Source: Oscillospiraceae bacterium (GTDB lineage Bacteria > Bacillota > Clostridia > Oscillospirales > Oscillospiraceae). Taken from it: a DNA stretch of 33,926 nt. How positions within the stretch are numbered: the stretch's first letter is position 1; each line of letters begins with the position of its first letter. The translations under genes and the position numbers were made by a program. Under the pieces are notes generated by a model, which did not search any database, had not been told where the DNA came from, and saw nothing but the letters and a program-made list of their open reading frames with translations. The stretch spans positions 1-33,926 of the forward strand of contig JAAWKB010000013.1 of the NCBI GenBank assembly GCA_022797115.1, read 5' to 3'. This document shows positions 17,805 through 22,172 of this stretch, one piece after another.

Positions 17805-18132
17805 GGGACAAAAACGCCCAGCCGCCCTTTTTTCCTGCCGGGAGCTCCCTCTTCCCTGCCAGGTTTGACAAAAAAGGGAAAAACTCTGAAAAAAGTGACA
17901 GGGTACTCCCCGCCATACTGGGAGGGAACCCTGCTGAACTGCCGCCGCCACAAGGTTTTACACATTATCCACACAGTTTTCCACATCGTTATGTCAACGC
18001 GCGGCAGCCGGAAAAGTTGAGAAACTGCGTCCACACCGCCGTGCGTTCCCTTTCTGCGGCCGTTTCGTGCATTACGGAAACTTTTCCGCTTTTGTGTAAC
18101 ACTATAAGCAGAATAGGAGAGGGGGCGTTTCT
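17805..18132. other. Divergent intergenic region between malQ and the recombinase
   Basis: About 330 bp without a gene. It contains A-rich stretches (17870-17905), an imperfect GGGT...ACCC hairpin around 17908-17934, the DnaA-box group at 17956-17985, and a possible -10 box TATAAG at 18103-18108 for the recombinase with no convincing -35. The recombinase ribosome binding site AGGAGAGGG is at 18115-18123. Confidence 0.5.
17956..17985 (+). promoter_or_regulatory. Three tandem DnaA-box matches
   Basis: TTTTACACA (17956-17964), TTATCCACA (17965-17973) and TTTTCCACA (17977-17985) all fit TTWTNCACA, in the same orientation; the middle one is the exact consensus. dnaA and dnaN are not nearby, so this is not the usual oriC layout. 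It could be a DnaA titration or regulatory site about 150 bp upstream of the recombinase gene. Confidence 0.55.
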
Positions 18133-18966
18133 ATGTGGATTCGTCATGTGGAAATTGAGGATTTTGCCGCCCGGCTGCGGGAAGATGAGCGGAGCGCGGC
18201 GACGGTAGAGAAGTATTGCCGGGAGGCGGCGCGGTTTGCCGCCTGGCTGGAGGGCCGGGAGGTCAATCAGGTGTTGGCCTTGGAGTACAAGGCACAGCTT
18301 GCGGAATCCCGCACCCCGGCAGGGGTGAATGGGGCGGTAGCCGCCCTCAACAAGTTGTTTTCATTTTTAGGGTTGGAGGGGTGCAGGCTCAAGGCGGTGA
18401 AGCAGCAGCGGCGGATTTTCCGGGACGAGGCGCGGGAGCTGACGGAACATGAATACCGCCGCCTGCTGGCGGCGGCAAGGCGGCGGGGCAATGAACGGCT
18501 GCTGCTGCTCATGGAGACCGTCTGCTCCACGGGAATACGGATTAGTGAACTGCGGTTCTTTACCGTGGAGTCGGCAAAGCGGGGCCGGGTGGAGGTGGAC
18601 AACAAGGGCAAGCGGCGGACGGTTTTCCTGCCCGGGAAACTGCAAACGCTGCTGCTGCGCTATGCCCGGAAACGGGGGATTGCGGAAGGGCCGGTTTTTG
18701 TCACCCGCACCGGCAGACCGCTGGACAGGAGCAATATCTGGTCGGAGATGAAGGGTCTGTGCCGGGAGGCAGGGGTGGAGCCGGGGAAGGTGTTCCCCCA
18801 CAATTTGCGGCACCTGTTTGCAAGGACTTACTACGGGTTGGAAAAGGATATCGTGCGTTTGGCGGATATCTTGGGCCATGCCAGTATCGAGACGACCCGG
18901 ATTTATACCATGGAATCCGGGTATACCCACCGCAAGCAGTTGGAGCGGATGCGGCTGGTGATGTAA
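18133..18966 (+). CDS. Stand-alone tyrosine recombinase (Xer/integrase family), candidate DNA invertase
   Basis: A 277-residue recombinase. The N-terminal SAM-like core-binding domain is at about 5-88 and the catalytic domain at about 100-270. All catalytic residues are visible: R136 in GIRISEL, K158 in the DNKGK beta-hairpin, H223 and R226 in PHNLRH, H249 in LGHASIETT and nucleophile Y258. The start follows AGGAGAGGG. No excisionase, phage or transposon genes accompany it. Its stop codon lies 6 bp before the first of two inverted loxP-like sites flanking a promoter, so the most natural role is inverting that segment. XerC/XerD, the chromosome-dimer resolvases, belong to the same family, but the context argues for a local role. 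Confidence 0.93.
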   Translation: MWIRHVEIEDFAARLREDERSAATVEKYCREAARFAAWLEGREVNQVLALEYKAQLAESRTPAGVNGAVAALNKLFSFLGLEGCRLKAVKQQRRIFRDEARELTEHEYRRLLAAARRRGNERLLLLMETVCSTGIRISELRFFTVESAKRGRVEVDNKGKRRTVFLPGKLQTLLLRYARKRGIAEGPVFVTRTGRPLDRSNIWSEMKGLCREAGVEPGKVFPHNLRHLFARTYYGLEKDIVRLADILGHASIETTRIYTMESGYTHRKQLERMRLVM

Positions 18967-18972
18967 AAAGAA

Positions 18973-19000
18973 CTACCACGGAATTGTCATTCCGTGGTAG
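18973..19000 (+). repeat. Inverted recombination-site candidate, left copy (IR-L)
   Basis: Two 12-bp arms, CTACCACGGAAT and its exact reverse complement, flank an asymmetric 4-bp spacer TGTC. This arm-spacer-arm design is that of loxP- or dif-like tyrosine recombinase core sites. It also forms a hairpin in RNA at the end of the recombinase gene. Confidence 0.85.
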
Positions 19001-19067
19001 CCAGCTTAGCGGCGTGTGCCCACTTTTTATTTTTTTGGAAAAAGGTTGCAGGAAAACATACAACTGC

Positions 19068-19106
19068 AAACCTGTTTTAAAAAAATTTAGAACAGGTTTT
19101 GTTTTG
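19068..19106 (+). terminator. Terminator hairpin inside the putative invertible segment
   Basis: Arms 19068-19081 and 19086-19099 pair over 14 bp (one G-U) with an AAAA loop, followed by TGTTTTG. It would block read-through from the recombinase gene and insulate the downstream promoter. A smaller stem (TTGCAG/CTGCAA, around 19045-19070) partly overlaps it. Confidence 0.65.
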
Positions 19107-19131
19107 CTATACCTAAATCTTGATTTTGACC

Positions 19132-19160
19132 TTGAAATATTTTCCTTCTAATGCTATGAT
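19132..19160 (+). promoter_or_regulatory. SigA-type promoter within the invertible segment
   Basis: TTGAAA (19132-19137), 17-bp spacer, TATGAT (19155-19160). Start site expected near 19167, so the transcript leader would contain the right inverted site. Confidence 0.75.
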
Positions 19161-19191
19161 ATCGTTAATTAGCCCTATGTATTGGGGCAAA

Positions 19192-19219
19192 CTACCACGG
19201 AATGACAATTCCGTGGTAA
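19192..19219 (-). repeat. Inverted recombination-site candidate, right copy (IR-R)
   Basis: The reverse complement of the left site: same 12-bp arms, but the spacer reads GACA on the plus strand. The two sites are identical over 27 bp in opposite orientation; only the outermost base (19219, A instead of G) breaks the pairing. In the mRNA leader it forms a hairpin ending 11 bp before the ribosome binding site. Confidence 0.85.
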
Positions 19220-19244
19220 AAAGAACGTTGGGAGGAAGTTGTCC

Positions 19245-22172
19245 ATGAAAAAACGATTACTATCAACCTTGCTGGCACTATGTATGTTGCTGTCCCTGCT
19301 GCCAGGGACGGCATGGGCGGAGGAGGTGCCTGCTCCAAACGACGGGGCTGCTCATGATGAGGTAATTCCTCTAGCGGACACGCTGACCTACGAAAACCTA
19401 TCCTATACGATTGCGGATAGTGGGATTGTGATTATAGATTGTGACGAATCCGCTACAAGTGTCATAATTCCTGAGCAAATTGACGGAATACCAATTGTTA
19501 CCATTGGAGATCAAGCATTTTGGCAATGCAGTAAGCTGACAAGTATCACGATCCCCAGCAGTGTCATATATATCTGGCCGCGTGCATTTATTGGCTGCAA
19601 CAGCTTGACAGATCTAGTGGTTGATCCTCAAAACCGCAACTATATCGTAGAAGATGACGTCTTGTTCGATATAACAAAAACCAATCTGGTTCATTGCCCC
19701 ACGACAAAAATTGGTGAATACACGATTCCTGACAGCGTTACTGCCATTGGGTACTATGCATTTAAGGGCTGCAATAGGCTAACAAGTGTCACCATTCCAG
19801 ACAGTGTCACTTATATTCCAGATTTTGTATTTGATGGTTGCAGTGGGCTGACAAACATCACCGTCCCTGACAGCGTCACCTTTTTGGGACAGGGTGTATT
19901 CAAGAATTGCTCTGGTTTAACCAGTGTCACCCTCCCAAACGCTATTACTTCTATTGCGAGCGATACATTCTATGATTGTATCAATCTGCCGGACATCACT
20001 ATCCCCGATAGTGTTACCTCTATTGGACGTTGTGCCTTCTTGAATTGTAAAAAGCTCAAAAGCATTACTATCCCTGACAGCGTTACGTCTATTGATGGAT
20101 CTGCGTTTAGTGGTTGCAGCGGGCTGGCTAATGTCACCTTACCTGACAGTGTAACGTTCATTGGAGACAATGCGTTTAATGGATGTAGCAGCCTGACAAG
20201 CATTACCCTGCCTAACAGCCTCACATCCATTGAGCCCAGGGTATTTGAACGTACAGGATTGACCAGTATCACAATTCCTGACAGTGTAACTACTATCAGA
20301 AACAGTGCATTTGAAAGCTGCCTCCAGTTAAAAAGCGTTATCATTCCCGACAGTGTGACATATATTGAGGGCGCTTTCGGCTGGTGCAGCAGTTTGACGG
20401 ATATCGTAATTCCTGACGGTGTTACCTCTATTTATGGGGCTACATTCTGGAATTGCAGCAGTTTGGCGAATATAACGATCCCTGACAGTGTGACTTCTAT
20501 TGGAGCGTCTGCGTTTACTGGCTGCAGCAGCTTGACGAGTATCCGTATTCCGGCCTCTGTCACCAGTATAGACGGTACCGCATTTGGATCTGATGGCGTT
20601 GTTTTGGTAATGAAGGGTAGAAATATCTATTTTGACGATTCAATAGCCGCATGGAAACGGATAGAAGAACATGCGGGAGAGACGATCACCTGGTCAGAGG
20701 ATATTATCCACTGTACCGACGGCATTATCCCCGTCAAGCTGGCCGCGCCGGAGAAACTGACCTGCTACAGCATTGACGAGGACACGAATGTTCTTCCCGT
20801 TAAATGGGAAACGCACGGCTTAACCCGGGATTGGTACCAAATCGACATTTATGACGTGGCAAATCCCTCCGCTCCGGCCAGGACTCTGACGGAGCGGATC
20901 ACCCCCATAGACGCGCAGGTATATTCCTACAAAGTATCCCTGGATGAGCTTCCCAGCGGCACATATTATCTGACGCTCCAGTCCGTGGGAGGGCCGGACG
21001 ACGTTCTGGAGGACGGCCCCCTCTATGCACCCAGTGAGATTGTAAAATCCAGTCAGTGGACATACATGCCGGTTGACCCTGTGGAACCCACACCCCCTTC
21101 CGACCAGATTTCCGACAAATTGGACAGCATCATCGACGCATCCACCGAGATCATCAAGGACACGCTTGAAAGTATCGCCAAAGGCGACCTGAAAGACGCG
21201 ATAGACAAAATCGGTTCCGCCATCTTTGACAAGATTGAGGAACTGGAAAAAAACATCAACGGTTCAGCAGAGATTGAGGTTGCGGCAGGGCTGGGCTTTA
21301 TTGACACCAGCGTCAAAGTCACCGGCGCGAAGCTGAACTTTGACTACAGCAAGAGCGTCCGCCTGGAGATCGGCCATCCGGAGGATGACAGTATCCAGGT
21401 GCCGGAACAGGACAATGCTGAGACCTTCCGCTTCTCCATGAAGCTGATCGAGGGCGCAAATAACAACGTGGCGGAGCTGGAGGTTCCCATCCGTGTCACC
21501 ATGCCCATCCCGGCGCAAAAGCTGAAACCCCATACCTTCAAGCTGTGGCACTTCCACGCGGGAAAGCTGGTTCCGGTGACGCTGTCCTCCACCCCTTACC
21601 AGGACGCAGCCAGCGGCCAATGGTACGTCTCCTTCAAGATTGACGGCTTCAGCGATTTCATTATGGAGTATGAGGAGGAAACCACCGCCCCGCCTGCTGT
21701 CACCCACACCATTTCCTTTGACACAGGCGGCGCACCTTTGACTGTCCCCGCGATGACCACCGGCGCAGACGGCCGTCTTTCCTCCTTGCCCACTCCATCC
21801 TGGAGCGGCCACCGCTTCGAGGGCTGGTTCCTGGCGGACGGCTCCCGCGTAACCACCTCTACCGTATTCAGCGGGGACACCACCGTCCGCGCCCGCTGGT
21901 CGCGCACCGCCTCCGCCCCGGAAACCAACTTTGTCTCCATCCCACCGTCCGGGCACGGCAAGATCATCACCGCCGACCGCTTCGCGGCGGAGGGCGACCG
22001 GGTGAACCTGTCCGCCCATCCTGACAAGGGCTACGCCCTCGCCAGCATCACCGTCACCGCCGCAGGCGGGAAGGAGCTCACCCTGCGGGAAAAGGGCGAT
22101 GGGAAGTTCTCCTTCACCATGCCCGACCGGCAGGTGAAAGTCATTGCGGAGTTTGAGAAAACAGAAAAATAA
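19245..22172 (+). CDS. BspA-type leucine-rich-repeat surface protein, candidate phase-variable
   Basis: A 975-residue exported protein with a clear signal peptide (about 1-27, ending AWA). Residues about 75-440 hold 14 repeats of the 22-23-residue BspA/LRR_5 type (F-x-x-C-S-x-L-T-S-I-T-I-P-D-S-V-T-S-I-G), one with a long insertion. A middle region (about 460-800) of unknown fold includes a helical, lysine/aspartate-rich stretch (QISDKLDSIID...). Residues about 815-880 resemble the InlB B-repeat (ISFDTGG...FEGWFLADG...TTVRARW), followed by a last beta-rich domain to the end. There is no LPxTG or SLH anchor. BspA-type LRR proteins are adhesins. The ATG at 19245 has GGAGGAAG six bases upstream. 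The repeat half is visibly richer in A/T than the C-terminal half. Confidence 0.9.
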   Translation: MKKRLLSTLLALCMLLSLLPGTAWAEEVPAPNDGAAHDEVIPLADTLTYENLSYTIADSGIVIIDCDESATSVIIPEQIDGIPIVTIGDQAFWQCSKLTSITIPSSVIYIWPRAFIGCNSLTDLVVDPQNRNYIVEDDVLFDITKTNLVHCPTTKIGEYTIPDSVTAIGYYAFKGCNRLTSVTIPDSVTYIPDFVFDGCSGLTNITVPDSVTFLGQGVFKNCSGLTSVTLPNAITSIASDTFYDCINLPDITIPDSVTSIGRCAFLNCKKLKSITIPDSVTSIDGSAFSGCSGLANVTLPDSVTFIGDNAFNGCSSLTSITLPNSLTSIEPRVFERTGLTSITIPDSVTTIRNSAFESCLQLKSVIIPDSVTYIEGAFGWCSSLTDIVIPDGVTSIYGATFWNCSSLANITIPDSVTSIGASAFTGCSSLTSIRIPASVTSIDGTAFGSDGVVLVMKGRNIYFDDSIAAWKRIEEHAGETITWSEDIIHCTDGIIPVKLAAPEKLTCYSIDEDTNVLPVKWETHGLTRDWYQIDIYDVANPSAPARTLTERITPIDAQVYSYKVSLDELPSGTYYLTLQSVGGPDDVLEDGPLYAPSEIVKSSQWTYMPVDPVEPTPPSDQISDKLDSIIDASTEIIKDTLESIAKGDLKDAIDKIGSAIFDKIEELEKNINGSAEIEVAAGLGFIDTSVKVTGAKLNFDYSKSVRLEIGHPEDDSIQVPEQDNAETFRFSMKLIEGANNNVAELEVPIRVTMPIPAQKLKPHTFKLWHFHAGKLVPVTLSSTPYQDAASGQWYVSFKIDGFSDFIMEYEEETTAPPAVTHTISFDTGGAPLTVPAMTTGADGRLSSLPTPSWSGHRFEGWFLADGSRVTTSTVFSGDTTVRARWSRTASAPETNFVSIPPSGHGKIITADRFAAEGDRVNLSAHPDKGYALASITVTAAGGKELTLREKGDGKFSFTMPDRQVKVIAEFEKTEK

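Follow-up and report, generated by a model that had tools for sequence, protein, structure and literature searches.

A candidate invertible promoter beside a tyrosine recombinase gene in an Oscillospiraceae bacterium, and related paired-site loci in other Clostridia

The DNA analysed here, referred to as the window, is a 33,926-nt stretch of an Oscillospiraceae bacterium (contig JAAWKB010000013.1 of assembly GCA_022797115.1) in which an intact tyrosine recombinase gene is followed by a short segment between opposed palindromic sites and then by the gene for a BspA-type leucine-rich repeat (LRR) protein. The locus is very likely an invertible promoter (inverton) run by the recombinase encoded beside it. 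This reading was proposed in a preliminary description of the sequence and is now supported by relatives, in which site pairs are conserved, spacers are identical within pairs and segments occur in both orientations. The two 27-bp sites (18974-19000 and 19192-19218) lie in opposite orientation and are complementary at 27/27 positions, as first described, with 191 nt between them, and site 1 begins 7 bp past the end of the recombinase gene. Allowing up to three mismatches, the site sequence occurs only at these two places in the window and in none of 100 shuffles; no third copy with up to two mismatches is present in the source organism's assembly (2.27 Mb, 139 contigs, 75% complete). Site 1 (18973-19000) reads CTACCACGGAAT-TGTC-ATTCCGTGGTAG with arms that are perfect over 12 bp, and site 2 is its inverted copy minus the last matched base, its arms being perfect over 11 bp and mismatched at position 12. 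The 12-bp arms originally given for both sites therefore hold for site 1 and not for site 2, and the asymmetric 4-bp spacers, TGTC and GACA, had been read correctly.

The evidence comes mainly from other copies of the recombinase gene. Homologues were drawn from 199 relatives and from the best 80 of 576 matches in genome contigs; 187/199 relatives gave some match, many of them weak and perhaps housekeeping Xer proteins. The best-scoring loci were taken for analysis and four exact duplicates were dropped, leaving 137 near-full-length loci, some near copies kept (L-numbers denote recombinase loci, G-numbers genomes and C-numbers contigs). Sixteen of these end less than 350 bp past the stop codon and are unscorable, which leaves 121. 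At E ≤ 1e-60 a homologue is found in 110/400 genomes of the family and 43/106 genera, and the nearest loci among the matches listed belong to Oscillibacter sp., an uncultured Angelakisella sp. and an Oscillospiraceae bacterium. The sites are kept beside the recombinase in these relatives, a point on which the preliminary description had made its reading depend: an inverted pair scoring at least 14 lies directly 3' of the stop codon in 107/121 scorable homologues, compared with 0/605 dinucleotide shuffles, 1/129 upstream windows and 0/320 windows further downstream. At a score of at least 12 the pair is found in 111/121 homologues, and in 13/605 shuffles, 4/129 upstream and 3/320 further-downstream windows. 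The arms are ACCACGGAAT in the window's genus and elsewhere mostly ACATAAT, ACAAAAT or ACAGAAT beside a 4-nt spacer. Loci with similar recombinases tend to have similar arms (Mantel r 0.50, reached in 0/2000 permutations, n=89), in a test that is inflated by the kinship of the loci. A search of 25 genomes of the genus for the genus site, with N at the spacer, gave a match in eight: seven pairs in six genomes and a lone site in two.

Across an alignment of six recombinase sequences from the genus, R136, K158/K160, H223, R226, H249 and Y258 are invariant, and they make up the R, K, H, R, H, Y catalytic set of tyrosine recombinases; the window recombinase is a candidate for catalysis on the two sites. 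By sequence the XerA, XerC and XerD recombinases are its nearest models and solved structures (XerA model 123.7 bits; PDB 4a8e, 8.2e-20), but it scores under every curated cut-off for these equivalogs (XerA 123.7 of 220 bits; XerC and XerD 93.3 of 335.15 and 101.1 of 329.6). Xer recombinases act at a single dif site, whereas the present family has several copies per genome, each with private inverted sites. The term 'loxP-like' used in the preliminary description survives as an analogy of design and not otherwise, the enzyme resembling XerA, XerC and XerD below their cut-offs, and we know of no sequence likeness of the sites to loxP. Two further homologues are present in the source assembly, L073 (52% identity, contig C30) and L074 (49%, contig C1). 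The contig of L073 stops 118 bp past the recombinase stop codon, and L074 carries a separate inverted pair, its sites 243 bp apart, with ACAAAAT-type arms that differ from those of the window.

The best-surviving alternative, though an unlikely one, is that the segment inverts and the adjacent enzyme is not its recombinase, or not the only one, as with RecV of C. difficile. PMC5903667 describes RecV as switching Cdi1-Cdi7, acting on distant switches, with partial dependence at some of them and apparently with partners. The likeness is that of a tyrosine recombinase inverting short segments ahead of cell-surface and signalling genes, and the presence of two additional homologues in the source assembly speaks for this alternative. 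RecV differs in serving several distant sites, with only Cdi7 having a recombinase in its vicinity (PMC5903667), whereas here nearly every recombinase has its own 3' pair, the arms vary with the recombinase, and the other pair in the source assembly has different arms.

The spacers were examined in pairs sought by their arms alone, the spacer being ignored to avoid bias. Under the 4-nt spacer definition 92 pairs were found in the 121 loci, and in 89/92 both sites carry the same spacer when read in one sense, while spacers agree in 1.6% of comparisons between loci and only 1/92 is self-complementary. Within-pair identity also holds under other definitions (6/6 for 3 nt, 3/3 for 5 nt and 76/78 for 6 nt), and in all seven genus pairs, among which there are five different spacers. 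Strand exchange by tyrosine recombinases requires identity of the exchanged region, and within-pair spacer identity is what such exchange demands. Switches within one genome mostly differ in spacer, the exceptions being two G014 loci that share TGTT, two SIG626 loci that share TTTC and two of three G017 loci that share TTTT. These observations bear on a second alternative, that the palindromes are terminators or operators and the segment is static. Site 1 does look terminator-like when read leftwards with its U-tract, and lone palindromes with no adjacent pair occur in two genus genomes (G001 and G007), but a terminator or operator needs no 4-nt centre that is shared within a locus yet differs between loci, and segments found in both orientations would be left unexplained; this alternative is very improbable.

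Orientation was compared by aligning segments in both senses, with z scores against 200 base shuffles. The window locus is assembled in the ON orientation, with its promoter directed at the LRR gene. Five loci of the same genus, found in four genomes (L034, L093, L095, L096 and L097), have segments to which that of the window aligns in inverted sense, at z values of 6.7, 4.8, 9.9, 7.0 and 3.8, respectively, compared with 2.0, 1.4, 1.3, 0.4 and 0.5 in the same sense. The window's LRR target is collinear with those of L095 and L096 (41% identity), and recombinase genes are collinear by construction. Opposite segments are also found in two sister pairs on the recombinase tree, L104/L110 (from one genome) and L135/L144, and L055 has its segment opposite to those of L065 and L148 with similar, collinear targets. 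The L034 target differs from that of the window and neither sister pair has a similar target, so only the recombinase side is collinear in those three comparisons. Both orientations are therefore present among homologous loci of different species or paralogues, the window and its five same-genus counterparts included; orientation differences among related loci were the other observation that the preliminary description had called for.

For a tree of 61 recombinases, 57 loci with a promoter score of at least 10.5 were combined with four genus loci (L093, L095, L096 and L097) whose state was set by homology, as OFF, because their segments align inverted to that of the window; automatic promoter calls for L095, L096 and L097 were sub-threshold (ON, OFF and ON, respectively) and L093 scored 10.0 (OFF). 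The 11 ON and 50 OFF states need 10 changes on this tree, at least eight of them forced by starred branches. Labels shuffled on the same tree need 10.3 changes on average, and 252/500 shuffles need as few, so there is no detectable phylogenetic signal in orientation, as expected if switching outpaces the divergence of loci.

Several observations weigh against inversion at these loci, or against its generality. L009, a sixth and more distant same-genus locus, is ambiguous or weakly same-sense (z 3.0 vs 1.7), and where two segments are at least 70% alike over 120 bp, with copies of one locus counted too, 53 pairs are same-sense and 9 opposite. The near copies L105, L106, L108, L188 and L189 are all OFF, with no same-species flip among them. 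Three arm pairs have unlike spacers (L160, L043 and L061), 10/121 scorable homologues have no inverted pair at a score of at least 12, and L094, the closest named homologue among the matches listed (72%), has no recognisable site within the 202 bp after its stop codon. Furthermore, a T-rich stretch able to end ON transcripts lies to the right of site 2 in 19/89 loci.

Taken singly, the window promoter (TTGAAA-17-TATGAT; 10/12 matches, with TG before the -10 element) is not above chance, one being found where 0.8 are expected in shuffles. The promoter proposed in the preliminary description is present, but its credibility comes from the relatives, whose segments are enriched in promoters: 49/111 segments score at least 11, compared with 15/1110 shuffles. 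Promoter geometry is conserved, with the end of the -10 element usually 30-45 bp away from the site ahead of it; the promoter is directed at the recombinase (OFF) in 41 of the 49 segments and at the target (ON) in 8. The terminator previously placed upstream of the promoter corresponds to a real hairpin (-16.2 kcal/mol with flanks). Absent from the preliminary description is a second structure: site 1, read leftwards, is followed by TTCTTTTTAC and is terminator-like, its hairpin running on into UUCUUUUUAC. An A-tract lies to the left of site 1 in 7/7 genus loci (by eye) and in 36/89 across the family; it was rejected as a family-wide rule and is a feature of the genus. Because of this tract a terminator at site 1 is possible, and in the window's genus site 1 probably doubles as an OFF-state terminator, judging by sequence and predicted folding. 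Within the segment, four pairs of a GTTG/CAAC hairpin are invariant in 6/6 aligned genus segments, with an overall covariation term of -0.03. Terminators inside the segment that would face the target when the switch is OFF are only modestly enriched (10/57 segments vs 3.7% in shuffles), and those in the same direction are found in 4/57 segments vs 3.2% in shuffles.

The following steps can be proposed. The recombinase would bind the palindromic arms of both sites and exchange strands across the asymmetric spacer, and the opposed placing of the sites would make the 191 bp flip rather than be excised. In the ON state the promoter would drive the LRR gene through site 2, whose hairpin would land in the 5' leader. 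In the OFF state the promoter would face the recombinase gene from its 3' side, and the transcript would probably stop at the site 1 hairpin and U-tract before reaching that gene, while the internal hairpin would face the target and may reduce read-through. Switching of this kind would change LRR expression at the window locus and give rise to a mixed population.

Table 1. Positions of features at the candidate invertible promoter, numbered from the first letter of the window
Feature	Position	Strand	Basis
Tyrosine recombinase, 277 amino acids	18133..18966	+	PF00589 3.3e-24; alignment of 6 genus sequences
Site 1 hairpin and U-tract, probable terminator of leftward (OFF-state) transcription	18962..19002	-	-21.9 kcal/mol, z -6.7
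Putative recombination site 1, 12-bp arms, spacer TGTC	18973..19000		spacer identity in relatives
Candidate invertible segment, 191 bp, ON orientation here	19001..19191		aligns inverted to five same-genus loci
Hairpin GTTG...CAAC, directed at the target when OFF; weak in the window	19045..19064	-	conserved pairs; z -1.3
Hairpin with short T-rich tail, terminator-like, between recombinase and promoter	19068..19099	+	fold z -4.75
Predicted promoter TTGAAA-17-TATGAT, aimed at the LRR gene	19132..19160	+	promoter enrichment in relatives
Putative recombination site 2, spacer GACA (reads TGTC on the opposite strand)	19192..19218		
LRR gene ribosome-binding site GGGAGGA, lying beyond the segment	19230..19236	+	sequence
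Target, 975-amino-acid BspA-type LRR protein with InlB-B-like repeats	19245..22172	+	LRR_5 3e-108, Flg_new_2 1e-12

The least credible alternative, a very improbable one, is that an integrating mobile element uses the sites for attachment or has them as its ends. The enzyme is of the integrase family and a profile search of IMG/VR contigs found 16 homologues, all 11 with enough downstream sequence having a pair, but what lies between the sites is mostly a promoter segment of about 120-380 bp that does not include the recombinase gene, opposite segment orientations are seen among loci, and the window neighbours, GH77 and ApbE genes upstream and metG (methionyl-tRNA synthetase) downstream, indicate ordinary chromosome. 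No near-identical pair in opposite orientation was found among the IMG/VR homologues, and the genus site pattern had 0 matches in viral contigs.

An invertible promoter with its recombinase in cis is of a kind already known. Invertible promoters likewise control surface structures in the E. coli fim switch and in the Bacteroides fragilis Mpi system; Mpi is a serine enzyme working on many sites, unlike the window recombinase, and FimB/FimE-type invertase models match the latter weakly (2.3e-4). An inverton with an LRR/BspA target, or a spacer rule such as that described here, was not recognised by title or abstract in the open-licence literature, subscription papers lying outside it, and aimed searches of the same literature gave nothing on a spacer rule or on invertons together with Oscillospiraceae. 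The closest description is that of PMC11892184, whose main text reports 1837 invertons detected by reads in a defined gut community, the strongest link between inverton and invertase being that of group 139 (33 invertons, 32 from Clostridia) with a group of tyrosine recombinases, invertase group 35. Its examples have 26-bp repeats with 205 bp between them and 14-bp repeats with 227 bp between them; both shift orientation over passages in reads, and one does so also with surface attachment. Group 139 is likewise a short, promoter-sized inverton beside a tyrosine-type recombinase in Clostridia, and from this likeness of description and geometry we think that the window locus probably belongs to this class. 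Neither this locus nor an LRR target is reported in the passages of PMC11892184 consulted, 'leucine-rich' and 'LRR' appearing 0 times in its main text, and the I. butyriciproducens inverton of that paper (227 bp between repeats) is not among the two loci seen in another strain (262 and 253 bp).

What is added here is a widespread family with one recombinase to one switch, locus-specific spacers, arms varying with the recombinase, mostly OFF assemblies and varied targets. It is suggested tentatively, with rather less than even confidence, that these loci are portable, self-contained phase-switch cassettes spread across Oscillospiraceae and other Clostridia, each with its own recombinase, co-evolving arms and a locus-specific spacer that helps to keep the switches of one genome apart, placed ahead of unrelated targets (adhesins, diguanylate cyclase, SPFH, TIR, helicase and a second recombinase) and, in the window's genus, using the site as an OFF-state terminator. 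If these loci do switch, some surface traits of little-studied gut Clostridia would be phase-variable and unreadable from one assembly, most such switches appearing OFF in assemblies (41/49 strong-promoter segments). With its many recombinases, each having differing sites of its own, the family would also open specificity, cross-talk and spacer function to direct tests and could furnish orthogonal genetic memory switches.

The LRR gene of the window starts at an ATG, its BspA-type assignment is borne out by the LRR_5 match (Table 1), and its N-terminus is signal-peptide-like by eye; a surface location and role are presumed. A start codon with a plausible ribosome-binding site follows site 2 in 104/111 loci (median gap 33 bp; 64/104 within 60 bp). 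Pfam was run on the window target and on 20 hand-chosen targets of relatives. Besides LRR_5, the target families include SLH proteins and cohesin/dockerin proteins, a GGDEF response regulator (L105), SPFH/Band 7 proteins (L039, L144), TIR-domain proteins (L143, L150), a helicase (L122), treble-clef DUF4379 proteins (L009, L067) and proteins with a recombinase N-terminal domain (L041, L087); the L034 and L077 targets matched no Pfam family. The gene immediately past site 2 in L041, L081 and L087 resembles another tyrosine recombinase, distinct from that of the switch (Pfam on L041 and L087 only), which as the switched gene would make a cascade of switches. The targets of L143, L150, L122 and L133 (the last judged by N-terminal likeness to L122) are TIR-domain proteins and helicases of a kind found in defence systems, and phase-variable defence is possible. 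A small protein with LTGQRFGKLTVL...AWLCRCDCG comes first after the switch in L054, L055, L058, L065, L070, L078, L080, L082, L086, L090, L091 and L148; it has a weak AP2 match, below the cut-off, in L070, and a large exported-looking protein lies behind it in several loci.

Some further features of the sites were observed. An exact 11-nt direct repeat, GTAAAAAGAAC, stands at the outer edge of both sites in the window (18963-18973 and 19216-19226); the left copy is kept in form across the genus, and the right copy was seen in the window only. The intergenic region ahead of the recombinase (window about 17960-17990) contains TTATCCACA and TTTTCCACA motifs, which we take to resemble DnaA boxes. 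The lone genus palindromes with no nearby partner are at L174 (G007:C59) and L178 (G001:C123), around 1501-1524; that of L178 is upstream of an unrelated gene and that of L174 is followed by a T-run, terminator-like. They may be remnants of former sites, or the palindrome may have a further use. Extra site copies on the recombinase side, either a third one or tandem direct ones, are present at L056, L059 and L061 and at the contig ends of L113, L120, L130 and L163; several contigs break off exactly at one of these copies. Contig ends less than 350 bp 3' of the recombinase (16/137 loci, about six at a site end by eye) exceed upstream ends (6/137). A sample of mixed orientation could produce this, but no weight is put on it because the comparison is marginal (p 0.05). 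Finally, L053 has a 74-bp inverted repeat at 32-105 and 323-396 past the recombinase stop, each arm of which holds the site and a TTGACT-17-TATAAT promoter-like sequence, so that a promoter would face outwards in both orientations.

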